Assembly (NCBI GenBank): GCA_030674185.1
Contig: CM060307.1
Location: 46,858,681 to 46,922,680, forward strand
Length of the DNA stretch: 64,000 nt
Reading direction: 5' to 3'
From: Monoplex corrugatus
Taxonomy: Eukaryota > Mollusca > Gastropoda > Littorinimorpha > Ranellidae
Made by a program: the position numbers and the translations under genes. Positions 8,973 to 58,384 of the stretch are shown one piece after another (position 1 is the first letter of the stretch; each line of letters starts with the position of its first letter). The notes below the pieces were generated by a model that did not search any database, was not told the DNA's origin, and saw only the letters and a list, made by a program, of their open reading frames with translations.

Positions 8973-11810
8973 CTGCAACAAAGAAATAATTGCACTGATC
9001 ACTGGCTACAATTCTGGCTTAGTAATTCATTTGCTTGTTACTAAAATTTAAAAGGAAAGACAACAACCAGACAAGACTTATCTGGTTGAATTAAATACGC
9101 ATTCTGATTTCTTTCCTGTGTTTTTTCTGGTTCCTGTTTGCTTGAATGCGGGCAGTCACACTTGGATTTCTTAAAATTTCAATTCTTTGCTTATTCGTTT
9201 CACAAAGTTTTGAGCTGACACGTGCGAGAGGACAGCGATGTCACAATCAATTATGTCACAATCAATTTCTCTGAGCGCGAAAGAAAAACTGAGCAGTTTT
9301 TTCTAACTTTTAGAAAAAAATCTCAAAACTACTTTTAGAATAAAATCTCAAAACCGAACCAAATATTGAAAGAGTTAACTGTGACTATACCCATCACTCC
9401 ACTGTGTGGCGTATGGACTATACAATACTCTACTACAAGGCGTATATTTTTTAAAAATCGCCAAAAAATATACAAGGTATGGAACAAAGCTGCCTACAAC
9501 AGTCAAGCCAAACAGTGTTTAATTTCTATTTTTCCACTTTTCTCTTATTAACCCAGGGTTTAATTTCTATTTTCTCCATCTTTCTCTTACAAACCATCTT
9601 CACAGAACTCAAAGATAAGTCCAAGGTCTCAAATGCTGAAACAGACAAAATGGAGAGGCCGCTTCAGAGTTGCTTCCCTTCAGTTGCTATTTACAGCGGT
9701 GAAGAATGCTGAACAGTTTAAAGTGATTTTCTTTTTTTCTGTAGTACTATTAATCAGGCAGTATGCTTACCAGCAGTGAGATCATACAGGACTTTGTCAA
9801 CCTCTGTGTCTGCTGCTTCCTCCAGTTCTTCATCATCCATCACATCCATTGCATCATCCATCATCTCCTCTATGATACCAGCCTGAAAATTGTATATATA
9901 CATAATGTGATTAAAAGATCATGCAAAAGACACCACACAGCAAAAAGTTCACAGATTTTCAGGGTATGCATCGTCTGTTTATTTCCATTTAAACAGCAGG
10001 GAAGTCTCAGTCTTTTCCTCCTAATTTTGAATTTGGTTTTTGATTGTGATCTTACATTTACACTTGACAAAGGCCAGTTGGCCTGTCTTGTCTGGTTGTA
10101 TTAAATACGCGTTCTGATTTTATTTTCATTTTTTTCTTATTCCTATTCACTTGAACACAGGCAGTCACACTTGTTTTGGGTTTTATTTACTACAGAAAGG
10201 GGAAAAGTGCTGACAGCTATGCGAGCTGGTGGCAGGGTGGGTTGCCCGAAGTAGAGATGAAGACCAGAGAGGGGCGAGCGGGGGCTCTTCCATTCTCTTG
10301 GTCCAGAGGCTGGGCTGGACCTGGTTTTGTGCATTGTGTGGCTATGTTCCGGGATTTGTCATCTCCCCACCTTTCCTCTGGTTTGTAAACAAGGTTACTG
10401 ATGACTGAGTCCGAATGGGTCCGCATTCTTGTGGTGTTTCTTGTTGACAGAAAACACCAGTGTCCTGTGGTTGTCTCAGGCGAGACCAAGGCTATGGGAG
10501 TAAACCCTGATAGAAAATCTGACGGAAGGCACCAGGAAACAATCATTGTATCTTTGCTAGAAAAAGCATGTCCCAAAACATGAAAAATATAGCGAACATA
10601 AATAGGGGCTCCACTGAAGCACCTTCATCCGGTACAGGGTGATGGTAAACAGATAACAACAGATCACAACCAAGCTACTGCCATTAAATTAAAAAAAATC
10701 AGAATTGCAACAAGGAATGTTGGTACAATGCTCCAAAAGGGGAAACGAGAAAATGTCAAATAGAAACGGAAAGACTGAATGTTATTAATTTTGGAATAGG
10801 AGAGGTGAGATGGAAGGGAGCAAGCATGATGACATCGGGCAAGCGTAAAATTATATATTCTGGAGGAGAAACACATGAAAAAGAAATATGCATCATAATG
10901 GACTTATGACAAGTCAAAGTCTATCAAAGGATACTGGACCTATCAAACTATGTTTTACTAGTTAGACTGAAGGGCATGCCATCTGATATCAATATCATCC
11001 AAGTATATGCACCAACATCCACAAATACTGAGGAAAAAATTGATAACTTTTATGTAGAATTAGAGACAGCCAAGGCTCAATGTAAATAACAGGACGTTAC
11101 AATTGTAATGGGAGATTTCAAGGCTAAAAAGTGGGACAGGAAAAAGTAGATAATATCGTTGGATCTCATGACCTGGGCATGTGAAATGAAAGGGAAATTT
11201 GACTGAACATAACATCCTCAACAATATGAAACAGTCCTCATACAAATTACCATTTAGATATTCTACCTTCATCATCTCTTTTGACATGTCTCTCATGGTA
11301 GCCATGACCTCTGGCATTTTGATCAGTTGCTGCATGCAGCTCATCACCTGGGTACTCTTCTGTAGCGCCCCAGCAATTCGCAAGTTAGCTGAAACATCAC
11401 AGCATTCATTCCAAAACCATGCTCCGTGCATACGTTAACTGTTTCGTTGTTGCATGTAAGTAAAGATTCATTAACTTAGGGGCATCTTTTAATATATTAT
11501 GATTTACAGGTGTTTTTAACAAATGTAAAGTATTAGGTGTGATGTGAATTTGTATACTGTGATATAACACTAAACGCTATATAATACTGCACAGTAAAGC
11601 TCATTGCTTGTTTTCTTCACAATGCAGTTTTCCATGTAAAAGTTTACATTCTGACTATTTGTTGCATGGGAGCTAGCATCTATTTCAATATCAATCCAGA
11701 TTTATTCTCTGAGGAGTCAAAAGTTTATACAAAACCTGTGGCAAGTACTTTCCACCTCTTAAAAGATTAGTAAAACAAAAACACAAACACATTAAATGTG
11801 CACACACTCC

Positions 11811-11947: not shown

Positions 11948-14900
11948 ACACACATCTCCGGATTAGTCTTGTTAAATGACGGTAGAACAACTAGAATTCC
12001 GGATAATCCTCAACATAAAGTTTCTGCCATTGACCTAACTTTGTTATCACCTGACCTTGTCATTAATAGCATGTGGGATGTTACATCTGACTCCCTCGGA
12101 AGTGATCACCTGCCAATTGTTACAGTTATAAATGAACCGTTTGATAACACACCAGAACAAGACGACGTTATACCTCGATATATGTACAAACGTGCTAATG
12201 GGTAAAATACCGGAAGATTTTAATGGGAAAAGATTGCACGTTTAATGAATGCGTCAATATTAATGATATGTATTCCCATTTCACCGATGCGCTACATGAG
12301 GCAGCAAACAATTCCATTCCAAAAAGGAAAAATGTAAACAAAGGTACTCATGTTGGAAATAGTTGGTGGAATCAATTATGTGAAGAAGCAAAGAATGAAA
12401 AAAAGAAAATGTATAAACTCTATTTAAAAACTAAATCTCCAGAAGACCATTACAATATGAAAATGGCTAAGATTCACTCAAACAAAGTTATAGCCCAAGC
12501 CAAAAAGCGCTATTGGTCAGATTTTTGCTCTGAACAAATTTCCGGGCCTAAAGATCTTCCTAAAATTTGGAATAAGGTCAAAGAAATGAAAAATGGTTTT
12601 AATTTACCACAATTTCCTCTTAAGATTAAAGATAAAGACTTTCCTTCGTCATCTGAGAAAGCTGAAGAGTTTGTACAGTTCTTTTCAAGAACAAGTAATT
12701 CCAGTAGCTTGTCTGCTCCATTAAGGGAGGAAAGACGGAAAATTGAAGAGTCCGTCGCATACTCAGATCCTGCCCCTGATAATCACATGTACATAAATTA
12801 AAAAATTACATTAAAAGAACTTAAAGATGCCCTTCTCTCGTTGAACAACAAAAAATCGGCTGTAGGACTGGATGGCGTTTCATATACCCTTTTAAATCAT
12901 TTACCAGAGAAATGGATTGAATACTTACACAATATCATACTAAAATGCTGGGAAAGTGGTAGCTTACCTGACATTTGGAAGACTTCGATTGTGTTACCAA
13001 TACCAAAACCTAATAAACCCCTTTCAGATCCAGGTAGTTACAGACCTATCTCACTTACATCCCATGTTTCAAAACTAATGGAAAAAATTATAGTGAATAG
13101 ACTGAGTTACTTTTGTGAGAAAAATAATATAATACCTATCAATCAATCTGGGTTTCGAAAAGGTAGATCAACATCAGACCATTTAGTTAAGTTAACAACT
13201 CAAATAAAAAATCAGTTTGCTAAAAGGAAAAATGTCTTAGCTACCTTCTTTGATCTTAAAAAAGCATACGATCAAGTCTGGCATGTGAAACTTTTGTTAA
13301 AATTTAAACATATTGGTCTCAACGGTAATCTTTATAATGTTATCAAAACATTTATAAATGACCGAAGTATAGTCGCTAAAATAGGTAATACATACTCTGA
13401 AAAACGATCTGTAAACATGGGAATTCCTCAGGGTTCCATAATATCTCCTCTATTATTTATATTTTGATCTATGACCTACCAACTCAAGTCTCAAACAATG
13501 TAAACGTTGCTCAGTACGCTGATGATATAGCGATCTGGATGAATGTTTCGTTAAAAAGGAAGACTTCCTTGAGAGAAATAAAATACATTAAAAAGGTCTA
13601 TCAACATGAAATTAATAATATTTCCACTTACTTGACAGTTAACGGTCTGGAAATATCCAATGAAAAAACACACATGATGCTTTTTAATAATGGTCTCAGT
13701 CCGAAAGAAGTACCGTTGTTTAAAATTGGTGATGAGGAACTGAAATATACTACTCACGTGAAATTTCTGGGAGTACAATTGACTTCTAGTTTACAGTGGA
13801 AAGAACATATTGATGCCTTGTTATGTAAAGCTATGAAAAGCTGTAATTTAATAAGAATTATTAGTAAACAGTCCTGGGGACAGGACACTAAAACGTTGTT
13901 ACATCTTGTCACAGCTTTAGTCAGATCTAAGTTGGCTTATGGTCAAGAGGTCTATTTTTCAGCTCCAAAATGCTATTTGAAAAAACTTCAAAGCTTAGAT
14001 AGTAAAGCTATTAAATGTGCTCTTGGGGTACCGGTGTATACAAAAACACAAGAAGTATATAAAACAGCTGGCATCCTTCCCTTGGAAGATTGGAGGAAGT
14101 TATCAACTGCTAAATATATAGTTAGAGCAAATGCAGTAGCTAATTATGCCAGTACGGAACTTAAAATTCGGTCCGACATCCATTTCCCCAAGAGAGCAAG
14201 AACAATAAAGTCACAAGAAACAATATCCACTTACACAAATGAGCTCTTCAAACTTTCTCACGTATTACCTAACAAAGTTTCACATAAAATGATATGTTGT
14301 CCTCTAACCCCCTGGGAACTGTCCAATGCTATTTTTGATATCAACTACACTGATACTGACCTGACAAAAGATATTAATCCACACTTGTTAGCAATTGATG
14401 TTCTGTCACATCTACACAAAAAATATTCACATTACTTAAAAATCTTTACAGATGGCTCTGTTCTAGATGATGGTAAAGCAGGCGCTGGCTTTCTAATTCC
14501 TAAATTTAAAGTAGAAAAGGCTTACTCTTTAGGACAGGGACATTCAATCTTCTGAATTAGTTGCCATCCTAATGGCACTGAAATATATAGTAGATCTTCC
14601 CATAACTTTGTTTAGTATCCTATTATGTGTAGATTCGAAATCTGCATTACAATCCTTAAATATTTTAGATAAAATTTCTAATTCATTGTTTAATAACAAA
14701 TAATACACAGGTTACTTTTTGTTGGATCCCATCACACTGTGGTATCCTTTTTAACGACCGGGTCGACAGAATAGCAAAAAATGCAGCAATGAATAGGGCT
14801 GGCAGTACTAAACTTGATTTACCACTCTCTGAACATGAAATGAATGCTATATTAGAAAACAAAGTAAAAGCACAATGTGACCTTCGCCCCTTCTCGGTAA

Positions 14901-15339
14901 ATTACCAGGGTTTTACAAGACAAGAGATAACTTTAGCTTACAGATTAACTCTCAATTCACTTCGAACTAAATTTAGTAAAACCATCAAATGTATCTGTGG
15001 TGATTTTATAACAGTTGATCACCTTTTGTGTTGTCAGCAAATGCGACCTTATTTCCCTGCGTCATTTACAAACTTAAAACAGAAACATACTGATTTCACT
15101 CTGTATTTACACATTGCTAGACGTTTACTGCACAGTCCTGTAGGTCGTTTTCTTTGATTCAGCCCAACTGTTTTATACCTGTAACTCCCACACAGCCCCG
15201 AGAAATCCGATGAAGCCTGACTGATATAATGTTCTGATTGTTTTTCTTTTGTTCGTTAATTTGTTTGATGTTACATTAATTGTTACCTTAATTGATACAA
15301 TGCCTTCATGATTACATAGATTCATTCATTCCTTACGCA

Positions 15340-40820: not shown

Positions 40821-42428
40821 CTACTCAAAACAAGTTAAGGGCCACCCTCCAATCTTCACCTGGTGTCGACAACACGGTGTATTGACGCGAGTTGATGAAA
40901 TCGTACAAATTAACTTGTGTTGCTGTATTGCTGAAGCAGTGCATATGTCAGATTGAAGCATGTGAAAAAATCCGCTTGACACCAGGTTCATGCTGAGCAA
41001 CACGAGAAACGCGAAAGTCATGGAAAATTGTGTTTTCGCTGTACCCCCTAGTACTGGACAGGAACAGCATGCGAGAGAAATGGGTTGCACGTGCACGGCG
41101 CACTACTGATGAACGCGTTCACCACCTCTTAGGCTGCCAGTGCGTATTTAAAGGGGCTAACCAGCCGCACAAATAACCATGCCACCAAGACGAAAATTGA
41201 GTGACACAAACCGAGGACGAGCGCTGGCATGGATCCAGGATGGAATTGCTACACGGGAAGTGGCAAGAAGAGTCGGAGTGAGCCACTCCGTGATACAGAG
41301 ACTACGAGACCGTGTCCATGCAACTGGACAGGTGGCAGAACGGCACCGTACTGGCAGACCCAGTTCAACGACAAGACGGCAGGACCGATACATTGTGACG
41401 CAGGCTCTGCGCGATCGGACTTCCACCGCCAGTGGGCTGAGAGACCAACTCAGAGCAGCAAGCAACACGAATGTCAGCGACCAGACAATTCGGAATCGTT
41501 TGCGTGCGGCAAATCTTGCGTCAAGGGCTGCTGCTGTTCGTACGACACTCCTGCCACCCCACAGGGTGGCCCGTACAGCCTGGTGCACACAGCATGTGAG
41601 GTGGACTGTGAGGCAATGGTCCAACGTCCTCTTCACAGATGAATCCCGATTCACCGTGAGGTTCAATGACGGCAGGGTGCGCGTCTGGAGACGTGTTGGC
41701 GAACGATTCACAGATGCCACTGTCAGAGAGCATGACCGATATGGTGGTGGGTCTGTCATGATGTGGGGAGGCATCAGTTTCAACCACCGCACTCTCCTGT
41801 ACCACGTCCCCGGCAATCTGACAGGGCATCGCTACAGGGATGAAATTCTGAACCCTGTGGCACTACCAACCCTGCAAGCCATTGGTAACGGCGCTGTTCT
41901 GCAGGACGATAATGCTCGTCCACATCGTGCTGCTGTCGTCACCAACTTTCTCCAACAGCAGGGTGTCGTCAGGTTGCCGTGGCCAGCCAACTCGCCCGAC
42001 CTATCACCCATTGAACACCTCTGGGATGTGTTGGGACGGGCTGTCCGACGCAACCATCCTCCTGCAGCCAATCAACAAGAGCTGGTCCAGTTCCTGCAGC
42101 AGGAATGGGCCGCCATCCCTCAAGCGACTCTCCGCAACCTCATTCGGTCCATGCGTCGCCGTTGCACAGCCTGTCTCGCTGCAAGAGGTGGTCATACCCG
42201 ATATTGAATGAACTTTCATGTCGGAGGCCATGTTTGTGAATTGTCCATTTCAACCTCCTGACTTCAAATACACATTCCGAGGAGTGTGTGCTTTTGTAAC
42301 TCGGTTTTTTGCTTTTTCCGGTTTGACACTGAATGAAATTAAATTTTCACTCTGATTCAAGTTCATGTCTTTCATGCTTTTGATTTTACAGTGCGTTGTA
42401 ACAGTGGCCCTTAACTTGTTTTGAGTAG
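40821..42428 (+). mobile_element. Complete Tc1-type transposon with perfect TIRs
   Basis: 1608 bp. The TIRs are 25 bp and perfectly complementary: left 40821-40845 begins CTACTCAAAACAAGTTAAGG, right 42404-42428 is its complement. Both ends are flanked by TA, and the insertion is in a TA-rich microsatellite. The single transposase ORF is intact. All parts needed by a Tc1 element are present, so it may be recent and possibly active. Confidence 0.93.
41179..42207 (+). CDS. Tc1-type transposase, DD34E, intact
   Basis: 342 codons from ATG to TGA. Tc1/mariner transposases bind the element's TIRs and carry out cut-and-paste into TA. Residues ~10-110 form a paired helix-turn-helix DNA-binding region (EVARRVGVSHSVIQRLRDRV, then a GRPSSTTRRQDR linker). 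The catalytic domain has LFTDESRF (D154), QDDNARPH (D244) and SPDLSPIEHLWD (E279). The D244-E279 gap is 34 residues, i.e. DD34E. The glycine-rich YGGGSVMMWGGI motif is present. The protein ends ARGGHTRY. No stop or frameshift. It aligns without gaps over all 342 residues with the second transposase at 56638-57666, 211 identities by my hand count. Confidence 0.95.
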   Translation: MPPRRKLSDTNRGRALAWIQDGIATREVARRVGVSHSVIQRLRDRVHATGQVAERHRTGRPSSTTRRQDRYIVTQALRDRTSTASGLRDQLRAASNTNVSDQTIRNRLRAANLASRAAAVRTTLLPPHRVARTAWCTQHVRWTVRQWSNVLFTDESRFTVRFNDGRVRVWRRVGERFTDATVREHDRYGGGSVMMWGGISFNHRTLLYHVPGNLTGHRYRDEILNPVALPTLQAIGNGAVLQDDNARPHRAAVVTNFLQQQGVVRLPWPANSPDLSPIEHLWDVLGRAVRRNHPPAANQQELVQFLQQEWAAIPQATLRNLIRSMRRRCTACLAARGGHTRY

Positions 42429-42874: not shown

Positions 42875-43930
42875 AAAGTTCAGTGTGCGGATGCTGGGGA
42901 GCTCTCTCAGTGCAAAATAGTATCCACATCTGGAAGTTCTGTGCTATAAATTCCCTCTTTTGTCATGTTTCTGCCTTTCTCCATTGCTTTGTCATTTTTA
43001 AAAAATATTTTTTGCCTTGCTGGTCCATTCACCTGTATGTTTTATGAAGCCTTACGTATATTACGTTAGGATTGATAATTGGGTGCATGTATTGACTGCA
43101 TTTTTTAGCGCTATGGAAAAGTGAAGTGCAGATGTTTTAGGTAATTTAGGCCACCTTTTATACATGTTTTGTCTTATGTCACGTTCACATTTTGGTTCAG
43201 GTGTCTTTTAAACCCTCTGGTGATCCATTGGGTGAAGCAGACGCTCCCCCGTGGGGATTCCGGGGGCTCCTTCAGTATAAATAGTATCCCCACCTTCTGG
43301 AAATTGTGCTAAAAATGTACTTTTATGTCACTCTTTGTTTATGCCTTGTTGCTTTTCTTTGTCATTTCTACCTATTTTCTGCCTTAATGGTCCATTCACC
43401 TGTACGTGTTCGATAAAGTCTTATGTACTTTTTCTTAGGAGCGATAATTGGGTACATGTATCAAGTGCATTTTTGGCTCTAGGGAGGTGAGATATTCGGA
43501 AGAAATTTTAGGTAATTTAGGCCTGTTTGTTTTGGTGTCCTTTTGTATGCTTATATTTGTATTCAGGTGTTTTTTAAATCTCCACTTTGCGCTAAACTGG
43601 ACGGAGTGGTCAACGCCGGGGGCGTGTCCTTAGATTGTGTGCGAATGCATTGATGTGTATTAATTTTTTTTCCTTTTTTTGTTCTTTTTGCCTGTTGAAG
43701 TGTTGAAGTTTGTATGTTTTGAAGCGGTTATAACCCTGACATGGCTCTACCCAGTCGGCTGGGCCTTAACAAGTAGTAGACGCCAGGGGTCTGTCCTTGG
43801 ATTGTGTGCGAGAGTGCTTCGGTTTTTGTAGTTCTTTCCTGGTTTTGTTTTTCAACGAGGTGTTATGTACGTTGTCCCTGTGGTACTATCCCTGGTATGG
43901 CTCTGCGCAGTCGGCTGGGCTTTAAACAAT
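42875..43930 (+). repeat. Three F1 copies in tandem order
   Basis: Starts at ~42895 (GGGGAGCTCTCTCAGTG), ~43240 (CCCGTGGGGATTCCGGGGGC) and a 3' part at 43775-43930. Each shows GATAATTGGG, the GAATGCATTGATGTGT-type block and GGCTCTACCCAGTCGGCTGG or TGGCTCTGCGCAGTCGGCTG ends. The last one has the AATACTAATACTG tail. Confidence 0.7.
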
Positions 43931-44090
43931 ACTAATACTGATTACTGAAGTTTTTACGTATATTTCTAAAATTGTCATATGCCTGTATTCCTGATTCTAA
44001 AATCTGTATGTCACTTAAGTATGCCTGTGTTCTGACAGGTTTGATATCTGCCTGTATTTCTGAAAATATTCTGTATTTAAAAATTTAATT

Positions 44091-44550
44091 CGTTTGGAAA
44101 CTACAGCATATTTTCGTTTTTTGTTGTTTTTGGAATGCTTTTATAACATACACACGTACATATCTGTATATCTATATCTATACATGTAGATGATATAGAC
44201 ATGTAGATAGGTCCCCTGTATGTATGTGTACTTATGTGTGACAGTGTGTGTACACACACACACACCCACACACGCACACACACACATATGGAGAGAGAGA
44301 GAAAGACAGGACAGAGATACAGATATTGAATGTATAGATACACGTGTATATGCATATAGATACATATGTATATACATATATTTGTATCTATATGTATCTG
44401 CATATCCCCGTTGGGTTGCCAGGGGCTCTTTTAGTATATACCTTCTGGAAATTCTGTGCTAGAAATTTCCTCTTTTCTGTTACTTTGTTTCTGCCTTGTC
44501 TTGCTTTCTGTCATTTCTACTTATTTTCTGCCTTAATGGTCCAATCACCT
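44091..44550. repeat. Cassette repeat, copy A (no SB insert)
   Basis: TTTGGAAACTACAGCATATT, GGAATGCTTTTATAACATAC, TATCTGTATATCTATATC, a CA block, a GTATAGATACACGTGTATAT block, then the F1 5' end to CCAATCACC. Copies B-D follow. Copy A lacks the SB retroposon and so shows the empty site. Confidence 0.75.
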
Positions 44551-44730
44551 TTTGGAAACTACAGCATATTTTTTTCGTTTGGTTTCTTGTTTTTGGAATG
44601 CTTTTTATAACATACACACACATACATATCTGTATATCTATATCTATACATGTAGATAATAGATATAGACATATAGATAGGCCCCCTATATATATGTGTA
44701 ATGTACGTGTATATATATGTGTATGTATGT

Positions 44731-44793
<63 letters not shown>

Positions 44794-45256
44794 TATATAT
44801 ATATAGAGAGACAGACATATTGTATATATATACGTATGTAGATATATGTATAGATACACATGTATATGCATATGGATACATATGTATATGTATACATCTA
44901 TGTATCTATATTACAAGATCCAAAACAAGTTTGACTGCCCGCGCCCAAGCAAACACAAACCAGAAGAACAAGAAAACCAATGTAAGCGCGTATCCAACGA
45001 GACAAAAAACAGCCTAGTTGGCCGAAAATTTGCGCTTTTGTTTTGTCTCGTTGGATACGCGCTTACATTGGTTTTCTTGTTCTTCTGGTTTATGTATCTA
45101 GTATCTGCATACCCCCCGTTGGGTTGCCAGGGGCTCTTTTAGTATATACCTTCTGGAAATTCTGTGCTAGAAATTTCCTTTTCTGTTACTCTTTTGTTTC
45201 TGCCTTGTCTTGCTTTGTCATTTCTACTTATTTTCTGCCTTAATGGTCCAATCACC
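44551..45256. repeat. Cassette repeat, copy B (with SB insert)
   Basis: Same order as copy A, with an SB hairpin copy inserted at 44920-45093. Ends at ...CCAATCACC before the next TTTTGGAAACTACAG. Confidence 0.8.
44917..45096 (-). repeat. SB retroposon, hairpin form
   Basis: Arms AACCAGAAGAACAAGAAAAC...CGTATCCAACGAGAC and the near-perfect complement GTCTCGTTGGATACGCGC...TTCTTCTGGTTT flank a loop with CCTAGTTGGCCGAAAATTTG. The extra single-copy end at the left (complement of GGGCAGTCAAACTTGTTTTG) gives the minus orientation. The flanks share TATGTATCTA. Confidence 0.75.
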
Positions 45257-45464
45257 TTTTGGAAACTACAGCATATTTTTTTCGTTTGGTTTCTTGTTTT
45301 TGGAATGCTTTTTATAACATACACATACATATCTGTATATATCTATACATGTAGATAATAGATATAGACATATAGATAGGCCCCCTATATATATGTGTAG
45401 ATATGTATGTGTATATATATGTGTATGTATGTGTACACACACACACACACCACAACACACACAC

Positions 45465-45522
<58 letters not shown>

Positions 45523-45905
45523 TATATATATAGAGACAGATATTGTATATATACGTATGTATGTAGATATATGTATAGATACACATGTATATGCATATAG
45601 ATACATATGTATATGCATACATCTATCTATATTACAAGATCCAAAACAAGTTTGACTGCCCGCGCCCAAGCAAACACAAACCAGAAGAACAAGAAAACCA
45701 ATGTAAGCGCGCATCCGAGACAAAACAAAACAGCCTAGTTGGCCGAAAATTTGCGCTTATTTTGTTTTGTCTCGTTGGATACGCGCTTACATTGGTTTTC
45801 TTGTTCTTCTGGTTTATGTATCTATATGTATCTGCATACCCCCGTTGGGTTGCCAGGGGCTCTTTTAGTATACACCTGGAAATTCTGTGCTAGAAATTTC
45901 CTCTT
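45257..45905. repeat. Cassette repeat, copy C (with SB insert)
   Basis: Very close to copy B, including the SB at the same place, so B and C duplicated after the SB insertion. Confidence 0.8.
45625..45818 (-). repeat. SB retroposon, hairpin form (copy in C)
   Basis: Same hairpin as in copy B with small differences in one arm (GCGCGCATCCGAGACAAA). Confidence 0.75.
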
Positions 45906-46290
45906 TTCTGTTACTGTTATCACCTGTATTTTTTCGATAAAGTGTTACATACTTTATCTTCGGATTGATAATTGGGAACATGTGTTAAGTGCATTTTTGG
46001 GTCTGGGGAGGTGAGATGTGCGGAAGCGATTTTAGGTAGTTTATGCATGTTTTTATATGTTTTGGTGTCCGTATGTATGCTTATATTTGTATTCAGGTAT
46101 GTTTTTTAAATCTCCCCTGTGCGAATCGGACGGAGTGGTCCTACGCTGGGGGCATGTCCTTGGATTGTGTGCGCGAATGCATTGATATGTGTACTTAATT
46201 TTCTTTTTTCCTGTTGAAGTTTTGTTTTGAAGCGGTTGTAGCCCTGATATGGCTCTGCGCAGTCGGCTGGGCTTTAAACGATGAAAGAAA
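45838..46290 (+). repeat. F1 copy, internally deleted
   Basis: The 5' end (CCCGTTGGGTTGCCAGGGGC) is joined to the middle and 3' parts; ends TGGCTCTGCGCAGTCGGCTG, GGCTTTAAACGATGAAAG. Confidence 0.65.
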
Positions 46291-46384
46291 AAAAATGTAT
46301 TTGCATAATCTACATATACATTTATATGCATGTATCTATGTGCGTGCACGCGCGCACACGCACACACACGTGTGTGTGTGTGCA

Positions 46385-46985
46385 AGGGGTGGAGATGCCG
46401 GGGGCTCTTTCAGTGTAAACAGTATCCCCTCCCTTCCCCGTTGGGTTGCCAGGGGCTCTTAAGTATAAATAGTATCCCCATCTTCTGGAAATTCTGTTAG
46501 AAATTTCACCTTTTCTGTCACTTTGTTTCTGCCTTGTTGCCTTGCTTTGTCATTTCTACCTATCATTTTCTGCCTTAATGGTCCATTCACCTGTACGTGT
46601 TCGATAAAATCTGTCCTTTTTCTTAGGAGCGATAATTGGGTACATGTATCAAGCACATTTTTGGCTCTTGGGAGGCGAGATATTCGGAAGCAATTTTAGG
46701 TAATTTAGGCCTGTTTTTGTTTTGGTGTCCTTTTGTATGCTTATATTTGTATTCAGGTGTTTTTTAAATCTCCTCTTTGCGCTAAACTGGACGGAGTGGT
46801 AAACGCTGGGGGCGTGTCCTTAGATTATGTGTGAGAATGCATTGATGTGTACTTAATTTTTCCTTTTTTGTTGATTTTGCCTGTTGAAGTGTTGAAGTTT
46901 GTATGATTTGAAGCGGTTATAACCCTGATATGGCTCTACCTAGTCGGTTGGGCCTTAACAAGTAGTAGACGCCAGGAGTCTCTTG
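46385..46985 (+). repeat. F1 copies (short 5' start plus near full copy)
   Basis: GATGCCGGGGGCTCTTTCAG at 46395, then a fuller copy from 46435 ending TGGCTCTACCTAGTCGGTTG. Confidence 0.65.
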
Positions 46986-47053
46986 GATTGTGTGCGAGAA
47001 TGTTTAGGTTTTTGTAGTTGGTTTTCTTTCCTGGTTTTGTTTTTCAACGAGGT

Positions 47054-47109
47054 GTTTGGAAACTACAGCATATTTTTTTCGTTTGTTTTTTGTTTTTGGA
47101 ATGCTTTTT
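47054..47109. repeat. Cassette repeat, copy D, left part
   Basis: TTTGGAAACTACAGCATATT...GGAATGCTTTTT, then the DIRS-like element. The remainder resumes at 49014 with ATAACATACACACACAC. Confidence 0.8.
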
Positions 47110-47123
47110 AATTACACATACTG

Positions 47124-47242
47124 TACCGTGGCTCACTGATGCAATAAGCGGCAGCGATTTGCCATTCCTGCCTTATAAACAAAGTCCGAAAGGACCATAA
47201 CTCAGAGTATCCATGTCTTGCGCATGCGCATGTGCTCTTCCT
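47124..47242 (+). repeat. DIRS-like left inverted terminal repeat
   Basis: From TACCGTGGCTCACTGATGCA to GTGCTCTTCCT. It contains CAAAGTCCGAAAGGACCATA and the palindrome TGCGCATGCGCA, a consensus NRF1-type site that could drive transcription. Matches the complement of 48859-48974 with about five differences. Confidence 0.85.
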
Positions 47243-47249
47243 GTTTTCT

Positions 47250-48660
47250 CGGCAGCCATCTTCCAGCTTGCCTCTATGCTCTGAGCAACTAAGTATTTTG
47301 CTACTTTGCTTGCAATCAATCGATTGTCAGTGCTGTTTCGTGTTGTCTTGCCTGTTTTCGTGTAAGGGAGAAACTTACGTGAAGCGTTAGGGTGGCAAAG
47401 CGAGGGTTAAGATTTCGTCCACGGAATTCTCCAACCCACAGCCCGGTACGCCAAAACCCGCTCTCTTCACCTTTGTCTCTCCCTCCTGTCTCCTTCATCT
47501 ACTCTCTCTCTCTCGAAGTCATCGCAACTCAACTGCGGTTCTGTTGCGGTGACCACGAGCCCTCAACTCGGCTGCGGTAATGCTGAGTTTTCGTCATTTT
47601 GCGGCCTTCACATTGCCCCTCACGGTAATCGACTCAACTGCGGTTCTGTCGACTCCGTACTCGCCCCCTGCGTACAGCTCAACTGCGGTTTTGCTGCTAC
47701 GTTTCAGTCCCTATCGCTGAAGGGCGACATGGGTATGGGTCTCCTTCGGGAGGCAGGAAGGCCAGCATTTTGGCAGAAAATGGATCACCCCCTGGTTCGC
47801 CAGGTGGGCCAAGGGAGACAACCCCCTATTATGGGAGTCAGATCATAGATCCGCCCAGGTTGTCTCCCTTCTCCCCCGCAGCCTGCTTGTGCCCCCGCTC
47901 CAACCTCTTTGTCCCATTCTGGACAGTGCTTGGTCGCCTTGGCAAATGCCAAGCGACCCACTGCGGGCTGGCACATCTCTGTCCCATTCTGGACAGAGCG
48001 CTTAGTCGTCTTGACAAATGCCAACCGACTCCCAGCAGGCTGGCCCCTTAGGCACTGGGGATCCGGGGACTCCATGGGCTCAGCCCATGACGCCTTACAT
48101 GGCACCGGACATGGTTCCATGGCAGCACTTCCCATAGCTATGGGATTTCCCCTTGCCTTGTCCGCAGGGTATACTTGGTGGCCCCGCTTTATGCCTGGCG
48201 CCCCACCCGTGCAGGCATCTGCCATGCCGACCCCTCCCCCCCCCCCCCCAGTCGGATTCCTCCCCAGGGGTGCTCCCCGGGGCTTCTGACCCCGGTCCCT
48301 TTGGAGTTTGCCCACGCTTGGGCACTCCACGGTCCATCGCCTCCTCTGTAGGCGGGCCGGGGGACACTGACTCGAAATCGGATGATGAGGGCTCTACCCC
48401 ACTTTTCCTTTTCCAAAGCAGTGCAATGGCTCGCCTCACACCTGCCTGGAGCCATGTCCACTGCACAAGAGGCCAAGGCTCCCTGCCTTACGATGGCAGA
48501 GCTCGCCGCGCATTGGCGTTCTCCGGGCACGTTCATTCCATCCTACCTGCGCGACGTCTCCCGTCTGCGCGACGATGGATCCAGGGTATCGCTTGCGCTG
48601 TGGTGACTCAACACCCCATCTCTGCCGCACGCCCTGACTCATCTCATTCCTCCAGGCGTT
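47250..48660 (+). pseudogene. GC-rich internal region, broken gag-like ORF
   Basis: GC-rich and codon-like, in contrast to the AT-rich flanks. Plus-strand frames give SVGGPGDTDSKSDDEGSTP, then after a frameshift near 48390 SKAVQWLASHLPGAMSTAQE, LTMAELAAHWRSPGTFIPSY and LRDVSRLRDDGSRVSLALW, stop. Short near-repeats (SVPFWT...LAKCQ-type, 47910-48040) occur upstream. By position this would be the gag ORF of a DIRS element; homology is not proven. Overlapping minus-strand ORFs are composition artefacts. Confidence 0.45.
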
Positions 48661-48693
48661 AACCAGGTAAGCTCCTTTCGGGTAGTGCTATTC

Positions 48694-48788
48694 TGCATCA
48701 GTGAGCCACGGTACAGTGTAATTAAAAGGAAATTTTCCTTCTAAAATTACGTTTAATCTAACGGTTAATACTTACCGTGGCTCACGCA
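48694..48788. repeat. DIRS internal complementary region (ICR)
   Basis: 48694-48723 (TGCATCAGTGAGCCACGGTA + CAGTGTAATT) is the complement of the left outer end (AATTACACATACTGTACCGT...). 48732-48788 (AATTTTCCTTCTAAAATTAC, GTTTAATCTAAC, TACCGTGGCTCAC) is the complement of the right outer end at 48963-49008. The two are joined, as expected if copied from a circular junction. Confidence 0.85.
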
Positions 48789-48858
48789 GAGTCCCTTCCG
48801 TCCTCCCCGCCTTCCTGGTTCCTTCCATTCAGTCAGGGTCTTGGTTTCCTCGAAAAGA

Positions 48859-48974
48859 GGAAGAGCACATGCGCATGCGCAAGACATGGATACTGAGTTA
48901 TGGTCCTTTCGGACTTTGTTTATGAGGCAGGAATGGCAAATCGCTGCCGCTTGTTGCATAAGTGAGCCACGGTA
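48859..48974 (-). repeat. DIRS-like right inverted terminal repeat
   Basis: Complement of the left ITR: GGAAGAGCACATGCGCATGC, GGTCCTTTCGGACTTTG, CGCTGCCGCTTGTTGCATAA and GTGAGCCACGGTA. A 36-bp outer end (TGTTAGATTAAACGTAATTT...) follows to the host junction. Confidence 0.85.
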
Positions 48975-49013
48975 TGTTAGATTAAACGTAATTTTAGAAG
49001 GAAAATTTCATTT

Positions 49014-49120
49014 ATAACATACACACACACACATATCTGTATATCTATACATGTATATGATATATATAAAGTAGATAGGCCCCCTATATATATGTGTAGA
49101 TATGTGTATATATGTATGTG

Positions 49121-49194
<74 letters not shown>

Positions 49195-49198
49195 TATG

Positions 49199-49269
<71 letters not shown>

Positions 49270-49395
49270 AGACAGGACAGAGAGAGACAGATATTGTATA
49301 TTCTGTGCTAGAAATTTCCTCTTTTCTGTCACTGTTTCTGCCTTGTCTTGCTTTGTCATTTCTACTTCTGCCTTTATAGTCCAATCACCTGTATT
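49014..49395. repeat. Cassette repeat, copy D, right part
   Basis: ATAACATACACACACACACA, ATCTGTATATCTATACATGT, ATAGGCCCCCTATATATATG, (CA)n, (TA)n, then the F1 5' part. It has no SB insert, like copy A. Confidence 0.8.
49124..49266. repeat. (CA)n followed by (TA)n microsatellite
   Basis: About 66 bp CA then about 60 bp TA. Confidence 0.95.
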
Positions 49396-49745
49396 TTTTC
49401 GATAAAGTCTTACATTTTCTAAGGATTGATAATTGGGTACATGTATTAGTGCATTTTTGGGTCTAAGGTGAGATATGCGGAAGCAATTTTAGGTAATTTA
49501 TGCCTGTTTTTATGTTTTGGTGTCCTTATGTATGCTTGTTTGTATTCAGGTGCGTTTTTTAAATCTCCCCTGTGCGATTAATTGGACGGAATGGTCCTAC
49601 ACCGGGGGCATGCCCTTAGATTATGTGCGCGAATGCATTGATATGTACTTAATTTTTTCTTTTTTTTCCCTATTGAAGTTTTGTGTGTTTTGAAGCGGTT
49701 ATAGCCCTGATATGGCTCTGTGCAGTCGGCTGGGCTTTAAATAAT
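49290..49745 (+). repeat. F1 copy
   Basis: CTGTGCTAGAAATTTCCTCT to TGGCTCTGTGCAGTCGGCTG and the AATAATAAAAG tail. Confidence 0.7.
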
Positions 49746-49754
49746 AAAAGAAAA

Positions 49755-50220
49755 AAGATCCCTGCCCTCTTGAAATTCTGTCCTAGAAATTTTCTGTTTA
49801 CTGTCACTTTGTTCTTTCCTAGTTTGCTTTGTCATTTATCATTTTCGGGTTTGCTAGTCTGTTCATCTGTATGTCATCGATAAAGACTTACGTACATTCT
49901 CTTATGATTGAGAATTGGATACATGTATTAAGTGTATTTTTGGCTCGAAGGAAATGAGACATGCGAAAGCAGTGTTAGGTAATTTAGGCATATTTTTGTT
50001 TTAGTGTCCTTATGTATAAAATTGTATTCTGGTGTGTATTTGAAATCCCCCGTGTGATAAATTGGACGGTGCTCAACGCCAGGGGCATCTCCTTAGACTA
50101 TGTGCGCAAATGCATTGATATGTGTGCTTAATTTTCTTTTTCCTATTGAAGTATTGTGTGTATTGAATACAGACTTGATATGATATGTCTCTACGCAGTC
50201 GGTTGGGCTTTAAACAATAA
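49755..50220 (+). repeat. F1 copy
   Basis: TTGAAATTCTGTCCTAGAAA to CTCTACGCAGTCGGTTGGGC and an AACAATAACAG tail. Confidence 0.7.
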
Positions 50221-53466: not shown

Positions 53467-55116
53467 TCCTACAGGGTTCGCACAGTCCTTAAAAGTCCTG
53501 AATTTTGAGGGCATGCTTTTTAAGGCCTTAAAAGTCCATACAAATCGGGCTTTTGCTGAAAGGTCTTTAAAAAGTCCAAGTTTTGTCACTGCCTATGATT
53601 TTTAATAAAGTCTGTGTAAAATCTTGAGTTTGTAAAAACAAGAAAAAAAAAAAGTCGGAGTCAGAGTTAAGATCGACGATCTCACCGATACGTCGTCTGT
53701 TATAGGTCAAAACACCAGAGTTACGGGCCTTCATGGCGCATGCGCGTACGTGAAAGAATGTTTCACCATTTTGAAATTTAGAAGTCAACATGCCGGGGAA
53801 GTGTTTGTTTTAACGTGGTTTGGCTGGAAAAAGACGAATACAAAGAATGGCTGCAGGCAGACCCAAACGGAGACAGATGCAAGGCCTTTTGCTGCATTTG
53901 TAAGAAGACCGTAGACATTCGTTCAATGGGAGAATCGGCTGTAAATACCCATAGAAAAGGGAAAAAACACTGCGACCTGATGAAGGCTTCAAATCCTACA
54001 GTTCGTCTTTCGAATTTTTTTACAAAAAATTCTACAACGAGCGATCCCATCACTTCTAGCAGTTCGTCATCCTGCAGTTCATCAACCAACTGTTCTGCTC
54101 AAACTCAAATGTCTGAACAGCCTGAGCCGAACTAAGAGACAATGAAAGCTGAACTACTGTGGACTTTAAAAGTAGTGACAAGTCATTACAGCTTTCGTTC
54201 GTGTGAAGGCATTTCAAATCTGTTCCAGCAAATGTTTCCGGACAGTGCTGTTGCCAAACAGTTTCAATGTGGAGAAAGAAAAACTGCATATCTGGCAGCG
54301 TTTGGCATTGATCCCTACCTCCAGTCTGTGTTGAAACAGAAAATAAGTGAGTCAGCATATGTGTTGCTCTTTGATGAAAGTTTGAACAAAGAACTGCAGA
54401 AAAAGCAAATGGATATTCATATCCGTTTCTGGGACAATGATACAGTTCACTCTCATTACTTACAGAGTTCATGGGACATGCAGCAGCTGCTGACATTTGT
54501 GACCATCTTGAACCACTTATCGAAGAGCTGGGTTACAAGAAGTTAGTGCAGCTGTCCATGGATGGGCCGAAAGTGAACTGGAAGGTTTTCAACAATCTTC
54601 AGGATCAAGTGGAAAAACACACTGCATGCCCCTAGTGTTGTGACCTGTAGTTTTAGTTATAGAGACATTTTACCGTCAGTGACTTCAAACATACATGTAT
54701 TTGTGTCTACTGATCACAAGAACTGAAATTCCTTATGGACGACAGGCAAACAAACATTTTTGTCAACTGCAAGATTGGAGAATCTGTTGTGTGCAGCAAA
54801 CATTTTCAAACATTTTGTCATTTCATCACAATAAATGAGAATCCTACATTTGCTCTGCTGTATTGTAAGAAACAAACATTTGTGGCTATACTGATATAAC
54901 CAGCTGAGATCCCTAAAGAAATCTATGCTCGCAGAGGATCCATGATGTGAGTATTGAAGAGTAACAGCGAATGATTTAATTTGTGTCAGAATTTCATGAT
55001 TATTTTTCTTAAAGTTATCCTTGAACTAAGTCCTTAAATTAAAAATAAAAGTTCTTCAAAAGTCCTTAAAAAGTCCTTAAATTTTTTGTCTGGAAATCTG
55101 CATGAACCCTGTCCTA
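53467..55116 (+). mobile_element. hAT-like DNA transposon remnant, TCCTA target duplication
   Basis: The element 53472-55111 (1640 bp) begins CAGGGTTCGCACAG and ends CTGCATGAACCCTG, with TCCTA on both sides (53467-53471 and 55112-55116). CAGGG termini, a BED-type finger and short target duplications fit the hAT superfamily. Subterminal AAAAGTCC motifs recur near both ends. The transposase is truncated, so this is a decayed or internally deleted copy. Confidence 0.7.
53790..54635 (+). pseudogene. hAT-like BED-finger protein, broken
   Basis: ATG at 53790, frameshift near 53811, then WLEKDEYKEWLQADPNGDRC with the finger AFCCICKKTV...VNTHRKGKKH (C-x2-C ... H-x5-H, BED type). A Ser-rich linker ends at an in-frame TAA (54133-54135). 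The frame then continues with KAELLWTLKVVTSHYSFRSC, KQKISESAYVLLFDESLNKE and, after a second shift near 54470, ADICDHLEPLIEELGYKKL and SMDGPKVNWKVFNNLQDQVE before a stop. Only the N-terminal part of a transposase-like protein remains. Confidence 0.7.
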
Positions 55117-56275: not shown

Positions 56276-57888
56276 CTACACGTCATTATTGAAGGGCCAG
56301 GAACGTTTTTGAGTCAATTTTTGAAAGGAGAAATAACCTATTTTCTCTTACTCTTTTCTCCAATTCGTTGCCGTAACTGAATGGATAAGAGCTCAGACAA
56401 CATTGCAGTTTCCTTTTGGCACGTGTTTGTGGATTTGCCGATTTGCAATGGGCGGCCCAAGGAAGACAATTTCCACACGAAATTGTCGAATCTTCAGCAG
56501 GGTCTCTCTGACGACGCAGGCAAGGTAGCGACAAAATTCGCTTTGCACGTGCAAGGCAAGCCCTTTTTGAACACTACTCCAGCCAAAGTTGCCCGCAGAC
56601 GAGGATAAAAAGGACCCGTTCTTGGTTCGTTTTAACCATGCTTGCAAGACGACGGATGACGGATGAGCAGCGGGGGAGAGCCCTCGCTCTGCTTGATGAA
56701 GGCCTAGCGCAGCGGGAAGTTGCTAGACGACTTGAAGTGTCGCATTCCACAATCCAGAGACTGCTGGAGCGCTTCAATGAGACTGGAGCAGTCCAGGAAA
56801 GGCGTCACACGGGTCGACCCAGAGTAACGACAAGACAGCAAGACCGCTACCTTGCCCTCTCCGTCCTGAGGGAAAGGGCATCCACTGCGGTGACCTTGAG
56901 GGGTCAGCTGAGGGACGCAACAGGTGCTAACATCAGCTGCAGCACGGTGAGAAGACGGCTACATGAGGCAAACTTGAGGTCACGGAGACCGGCCGTCCGA
57001 CCCGTGCTGTCACCGGTCAACAGAGTGCGCCGCATGACCTGGGCCAGGGAGCACGTGACCTGGACAAGGCAACAGTGGGCCCGGGTCTTGTTTTCGGATG
57101 AGTCCAGGTTCACCCTGACCTTTAACGATGGCCGGGCTCGGGTGTGGCGACGTCAAGGGGAGAGGTTCGCTGACGCCACTGTCCAAGAGCATAACCGGTA
57201 CGGCGGCGGGTCGGTGATGGTGTGGGGTGGCATGAGCCGTGGTACCCGGACCCCCCTGCTCCCCATTGACGGCATCCTGAACGGGGTCCGGTACCGGGAC
57301 GAGGTTCTGGCGGCCGTGGCACTGCCTGCGCTTGTGGACCTTGGTCAAGGCGCCATCTTCCAGGACGACAATGCACCTGCGCATCGAGCACGCCTTGTGA
57401 CCGACTTCCTGGAGCAGCATGAAGTCGTCCGTATGGCCTGGCCAGCGTGCTCACCTGACCTGAACCCAATTGAACACCTCTGGGATGTGCTCGGGAGGCG
57501 CATCAGGGACAACCACCCCCCACCGGGCACCCTGGCCAGGCTGGTCGACATCCTGCAGATCGAGTGGGCGGCCATCCCTCAGGACACACTCCGTACCCTT
57601 GTGGGGTCGATGCATCGGCGCTGTGAAGCATGCATCCAGGCTCGGGGCGGACACACGCGATATTGAAAACAGATTGGCCAAATCTGACACTTTCTGTTTT
57701 TTGAAAAGGGGGGGATGTTCCTTTAAATGCATGTGCTGTTCACTAATGGGTCATTGTGCTAATTTCTTTTTCCAAAACAGGTGTGGAAATGATGAAATAA
57801 AACATAGAATCAATTCTAAACATTGTCAATTATTTCAACTTAAAATTAGAGAGGAAGGAATAAGTGGCCCTTAAATTATGATTAGGAG
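56276..57888 (+). mobile_element. Second Tc1-type transposon, imperfect TIRs
   Basis: 1613 bp flanked by TA. The ends CTACACGTCATTATTGAAGG and the complement of the right end (CTCCTAATCATAATTTAAGG), each followed by GCCA, are similar but not identical (about 19 of 25). The terminal AAGGGCCA block is also present in the first Tc1 element. The ORF is intact, GC-rich, unlike the AT-rich flanks. Confidence 0.88.
56638..57666 (+). CDS. Tc1-type transposase, DD34E, intact
   Basis: 342 codons, ATG to TGA. Same cut-and-paste role as the transposase at 41179. The N-terminal helix-turn-helix region (EVARRLEVSHSTIQRLLERF) is followed by the GRPRVTTRQQDR linker. The catalytic domain has LFSDESRF (D154), QDDNAPAH (D244) and SPDLNPIEHLWD (E279), with 34 residues between the last two. 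YGGGSVMVWGGM is present; C-terminus ARGGHTRY. It aligns without a gap over all 342 residues with the first element's protein (~62% identity by hand count), so they are two families that diverged long ago. Intact coding despite diverged TIRs suggests functional constraint or a recent arrival with naturally imperfect ends. Confidence 0.93.
   Translation: MLARRRMTDEQRGRALALLDEGLAQREVARRLEVSHSTIQRLLERFNETGAVQERRHTGRPRVTTRQQDRYLALSVLRERASTAVTLRGQLRDATGANISCSTVRRRLHEANLRSRRPAVRPVLSPVNRVRRMTWAREHVTWTRQQWARVLFSDESRFTLTFNDGRARVWRRQGERFADATVQEHNRYGGGSVMVWGGMSRGTRTPLLPIDGILNGVRYRDEVLAAVALPALVDLGQGAIFQDDNAPAHRARLVTDFLEQHEVVRMAWPACSPDLNPIEHLWDVLGRRIRDNHPPPGTLARLVDILQIEWAAIPQDTLRTLVGSMHRRCEACIQARGGHTRY

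Positions 57889-58311: not shown

Positions 58312-58384
<73 letters not shown>

Follow-up and report, generated by a model that had tools for sequence, protein, structure and literature searches.

DIRS1-like retrotransposons, as described in the available part of PMC3266345, are characterised by inverted ends and by internal complementary regions (ICRs) that overlap on a 3-bp circular junction, and most of them carry an additional extension on the right. A start with NTT is nearly universal and is complementary to the junction; the circle inserts at a matching triplet without producing a target duplication. The families tabulated in the same part of that source comprise DIRS1 of Dictyostelium as well as elements of Aplysia, Anolis and Xenopus. 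According to the available sections of a 2017 review (PMC5633606), parts of the ends are missing from the DIRS-1 transcript and have been proposed to be rebuilt on the ICR, a step which is termed 'not fully proven' there, and a circular DIRS-1 copy has been demonstrated in one mutant strain. Short DIRS elements are not described in the available sections of PMC5633606, PMC8498967 and PMC8969392, which is no proof that none are in print. The accessible text of PMC9210276 contains the word 'nonautonomous' in a reference title only, and that of PMC2685390 holds nothing on short DIRS elements. Our literature search retrieved neither the phrase 'non-autonomous DIRS' nor the motif YLRDV in connection with DIRS.

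Here, we analysed a window of 64 kb (the whole stretch of DNA under study) from Monoplex corrugatus, which contains a compact element with the anatomy of this group. We propose that it is very probably a non-autonomous, internally deleted DIRS1-like retrotransposon that was inserted as a circle by the recombinase of a partner element.

The element and its insertion site

The sequence flanking the element on both sides is a repeat, of which three uninterrupted (empty) copies are present in the window:

47107-49010 (+): inserted element, 1,904 bp, starting with TTT
44092-44239 (+): empty copy 1 of the flanking repeat, with one T fewer at the site
44551-44716 (+): empty copy 2 of the flanking repeat
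45258-45406 (+): empty copy 3 of the flanking repeat

Upon removal of 47107-49010 in silico, the joined flanks aligned across the join with all three empty copies at 84-90% identity. A TTT of the target (49011-49013) directly follows the element. Insert and target have only TTT(A) in common, which leaves the join movable within TTTA by up to 4 bases. Judged by the three empty sites, there is no target duplication beyond TTT(A), a comparison that formally leaves room for a duplication of 3-4 bp. The T run between the arms of the ICR argues that the TTT belongs to the element rather than being a target duplication. The initial annotation had placed the borders at 47110 and 49010; its right border coincides with ours and its left border is 3 bp short of the position given by the empty sites (47107). 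No second copy of the element was found in the 64-kb window, the sole match outside the element being a simple-sequence match of 61 columns at 58315, and DNA of a full-length partner was not seen either.

The element lies inside one of a series of diverged repeat units (43766-50220), which include long microsatellites of CA and TA. By eye, two neighbouring units were found to contain a short inverted repeat of foldback type (44900-45090 and 45640-45810; CCAGAAGAACAAGAAAACCAATGTAAGCGCG... paired with its complement), possibly a MITE that was inserted prior to the duplication of the unit. The window as a whole is rich in repeats, and several other features were observed in it. Two long transposase frames of the Tc1/mariner type, both open (DDE_3 and HTH_Tnp_Tc3_2), are located at 41161-42207 and 56512-57666 (+), and ARAGORN called a probably spurious tRNA-Gly inside the second of them (57445-57530, -). 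A frame-broken retrotransposon of the non-LTR type occupies 12199-15157 (+), with RVT_1 matches of 1.6e-29 (12802-13464) and 6.3e-8 (13401-14552). A Snf7 (ESCRT-III) match at 11063-11434 (-, 1.3e-6) is perhaps a host gene exon, and frames at 53782-54546 (+) resemble a broken zinc-finger/hAT-type protein by eye, with no Pfam match. Rfam gave no match on the whole window.

Inverted ends and internal complementary region

The following parts of the element were delimited, in order of position:

47107-47123 (+): outermost left end (TTTAATTACACATACTG), which the left ICR half matches; the right end is only partly alike
47124-47248 (+): left inverted terminal repeat, 95.2% identical to the reverse complement of 48852-48974 over 125 alignment columns
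47263-48500 (+): GC-rich interior, GC content 0.52 and then 0.62, reading frames broken
47903-48044 (+): imperfect tandem duplication of about 70 bp, 82%
48505-48720 (+): remainder of a DIRS tyrosine recombinase (YR) gene, degraded and limited to the C-terminus (AAHWRSPGTFIPSYLRDVSRLRDDGSR...), from tblastn of relatives and protein search
48694-48727 (+): left ICR, matching the left terminus in reverse complement; all 34 aligned bases agree, and a single gap makes the ICR 4 bases shorter
48724-48727 (+): A-run at the circular junction (AAA of the DIRS1 model)
48729-48785 (+): right ICR, matching the right extension plus the outer right end in reverse complement, nine bases longer
48852-48974 (+): right inverted terminal repeat, pairing with 47124-47248
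48976-49010 (+): right (3') extension, outside the right inverted repeat and complementary to the right ICR

Only four substitutions separate the left from the right inverted end; the length of about 118 bp assigned to these ends at the outset was correct, if slightly short. Near the 3' end of the element, the ICR (48694-48785) consists of the reverse complement of the left end fused to that of the right end with its extension. We thereby confirm the initial annotation, which had described a fused complement of both outer ends at 48694-48788 and had counted four missing bases, which is exact, and about ten extra bases, which are nine. When the right ICR half is compared with the reverse complement of the right end, 34 bases without mismatch (counted by eye) are followed by nine gap columns and then by the shared TACCGTGGCTCAC. 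For each of three comparisons of ends and ICR, 2,000 dinucleotide shuffles failed to produce a score as high as the observed one.

The junction was additionally assessed by scoring 51 left borders against the ICR with the right border fixed at 49010. The best score (54.0) was obtained at offset -1, compared to 53.0 at offset -3 and 51.5 for the empty-site border itself; the scores fall off slowly on one side, hence the base is not fixed by the scan alone. A two-way scan of both borders also ranked this join best, although several shifted joins scored equally. The one-base disagreement between the junction scan and the empty sites comes down to the length of the T run and one A/C difference, and the predicted circle junction reads ...AAAATTTC(A/C)TTTAATTAC....

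The element thus resembles DIRS1-like elements, as far as the available part of PMC3266345 describes them, in its inverted ends, its right extension, its two-part ICR at the 3' end and the lack of a target duplication; its A-run junction is complementary to the TTT start as in XtDIRS3 (TTT/TTT/AAA) in the same source. It differs from them in length, with 1.9 kb compared to 3,974-6,196 bp in the rows tabulated there, and in the indels of four and nine bases between its ends and its ICR.

Interior and recombinase remnant

The GC-rich interior is possibly derived from gag; its broken frames gave no match to a gag family in Pfam. Seven plus-strand frames of the element, three of which (48138-48659, 48352-48603 and 48607-48741) extend past 48500, yielded a single Pfam match at E≤1, insignificant and unrelated (0.19, on 48607-48741). 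Neither RNase H nor methyltransferase was detected by Pfam in these seven frames (the only comparison made for the methyltransferase), and the best match of the reverse transcriptase (RT) half of protein P0109, introduced below, to the element was not significant (E=0.15).

As in DIRS1-like elements, in which the YR is the last gene before the ICR, the sequence leading into the ICR carries a YR remnant (48505-48720), whose active-site tail still has its W and Y. The match changes frame near 48582 and returns to the first frame on entering the ICR. Frame 48352-48603, together with the sequence that continues it, resembles the end of a YR. With residues 436-498 of the longer frame as query, one protein was retrieved at E≤10 among 52 candidates, namely P0002 (E=2.3e-4); the 84-aa YR tail had no match among PDB sequences. 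P0002 in turn matched at least 152 proteins (itself included) at E≤0.001 among 7,999 candidates scored, and 120 of them (P0002-P0121) were used as the set of relatives. Among the matches listed, the YR tail frame of the element was matched by 107 of the 120 relatives (E≤0.01, 33-85% identity), the closest over the C-terminal 27 residues being P0003 (85%) and P0002 (81%); matches elsewhere in the element were listed for three of the 120, all of them to the left end on its minus strand. Past 48582 or so, P0109 of Nucella lapillus continues in another frame with 73% identity over 26 residues. The claim that the element lacks RT and recombinase hence stands for working genes and has to be corrected for the degraded YR C-terminus that persists. 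Unlike autonomous DIRS1-like elements, it has no detected RT, RNase H or methyltransferase and only the tail of a YR, and this tail is frameshifted, unlike the longer reading frames of the relatives.

How firmly can these relatives be called tyrosine recombinases? P0002 itself matched no Pfam family at E≤10 and no PDB sequence at E≤1. Its AlphaFold model (36-row alignment, mean pLDDT 83.9) matches Cre chains best (E=5.1e-6, probability 1.00, TM 0.57, rmsd 6.3), and a loose R/HxxR/W/Y pattern of our own design fits 88 of the 120 relatives among the matches listed. P0026 has weak Pfam matches to Phage_int_SAM_4 (0.0015) and Phage_integrase (0.004), both below the cut-off, PF13495 is precomputed for P0027 and P0028, and P0045 is named 'integrase' in its source. 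The assignment as YR is based on this residue pattern, the Cre-like fold, the weak matches of P0026, the PF13495 entries and the name of P0045. P0109 combines RT and YR in a single protein (Pfam RVT_1, 6.1e-11). An organism is named for six of the 120 relatives among the matches listed (three from Babylonia areolata, two from Nucella lapillus, one from Littorina saxatilis); all six come from sea snails, with Babylonia and Littorina being caenogastropods by taxonomy, and Nucella is also a caenogastropod. Words of the inverted repeats had no match in viral contigs, and no tblastn relative was obtained with P0002 or alignment A1 in viral contigs or with A1 in prokaryote genomes (3, 22 and 26 pattern matches, respectively).

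Decay of the ICR

Three of the 120 relatives among the matches listed (P0011, P0012 and P0107) extend past the usual end and finish with FCTCEP[RQ]YSMCN. They are much alike and are perhaps copies from one genome; the other 117 among these matches have no tail entering the ICR, many of them being fragments or ending earlier. The reverse complement of the left end of our element encodes CISEPRYSMCN followed by a stop, and it is matched by P0011, P0012 and P0107 in tblastn with E-values of 1.5e-4, 0.002 and 0.002. The shared tail and the left-end match indicate that the ICR of these relatives lies at the same place in an undeleted form. The ICR of the element reads CISEPRYSVIKRKFSF and is out of frame after the loss of four bases. 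Since the left end encodes the tail of the relatives and the ICR lacks four bases, it is the ICR that decayed and not the end: as judged from the sequences, the left end retained the relatives' form and the four-base loss occurred in the ICR. The nine-base difference between the right ICR half and the right end may have arisen on either side. The initial annotation had concluded that end and ICR are not freshly homogenised; the mismatches are real, and we refine this view in that the mismatch of the left half is polarised, with bases lost from the ICR. Under the published model, in which the ICR serves as template for the ends, the ICR would still have been whole when this copy of the element was made. 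Alternatively, the loss in the ICR could be older and the left end inherited through RNA instead.

Alternative origins

A DNA transposon of the foldback or MITE-like type, in which the inverted repeats are long and the ICR is a chance internal repeat, would account for the inverted ends and for the lack of a complete recognisable reading frame. We consider it highly improbable, as the ICR joins both ends within one base of the point given by the empty sites, a YR gene remnant enters the ICR, and the borders have only TTT(A) in common; this reading is largely refuted by these observations and was dropped. A derivative of a Crypton or of another YR-encoding DNA transposon would fit the YR remnant and the lack of a clear target duplication. 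To our knowledge, the layout of Cryptons does not comprise inverted ends together with an ICR. Such an origin is likewise very unlikely given that these two features constitute the DIRS1 layout and that RT and YR are combined in P0109 of Nucella lapillus, and it was dropped on these grounds.

The third alternative is still a DIRS copy and differs from our preferred reading only in the order of deletion and insertion. It is possible, though with less than an even chance, that a full-length autonomous DIRS element was inserted and its interior subsequently deleted in place, so that it never moved as a short element. The interior lost in this way would have comprised, at the same tentative level, RT, RNase H, the methyltransferase, most of the YR and perhaps most of gag. 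Only one copy is in hand, a GC-rich block of unassigned origin adjoins the YR C-terminus in its remnant, and its ends and ICR fit either order. Nothing decisive speaks against deletion in place; the broken frames of the interior set against only four substitutions between the ends lean weakly towards an older broken interior and thus, on this sequence comparison, towards a deletion that may have preceded the insertion.

A model for the insertion

The reading as a non-autonomous DIRS derivative, which the initial annotation had already put forward, is supported by the inverted repeats, the 3' extension, the bipartite ICR, the TTT triplet and the lack of an additional duplication; the remnant of a DIRS-type YR gene entering the ICR provides an independent line of evidence. 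Combining what was observed here (the anatomy of the element, its insertion into a repeat with which it shares TTT(A) alone, and the YR remnant) with the published DIRS model suggests the following course of events. The transcript of the element would have been copied by the RT of a partner element, the missing end sequences would have been rebuilt on the ICR, and the ends would have been joined at the TTT/AAA triplet to form a circle. The tyrosine recombinase of the partner would then have placed this circle into the TTT of the flanking repeat. Following insertion, four bases were presumably lost from the ICR, with the left end retaining the form found in the relatives. As far as the comparisons above show, the element can code for neither RT nor recombinase, hence the partner should have supplied both, unless the interior was lost after insertion.

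In itself, the element is an ordinary decayed transposon copy, and it is valuable for how complete its record is. The borders, the empty site, the ICR and the polarised damage to the latter can be read together, which makes the locus a compact test system for the rebuilding of ends. But, what would follow if such copies are not singular? It is conceivable, with a chance approaching but not reaching even, that the element belongs to a family of short DIRS copies mobilised in trans, and that the mismatch between end and ICR records ends which are re-copied from the ICR at every insertion, the left end still holding four ancestral bases since lost from the ICR. If true, short copies with a broken ICR would be dead ends, and the mismatch between end and ICR could be used to date DIRS insertions copy by copy, like LTR divergence for LTR elements.
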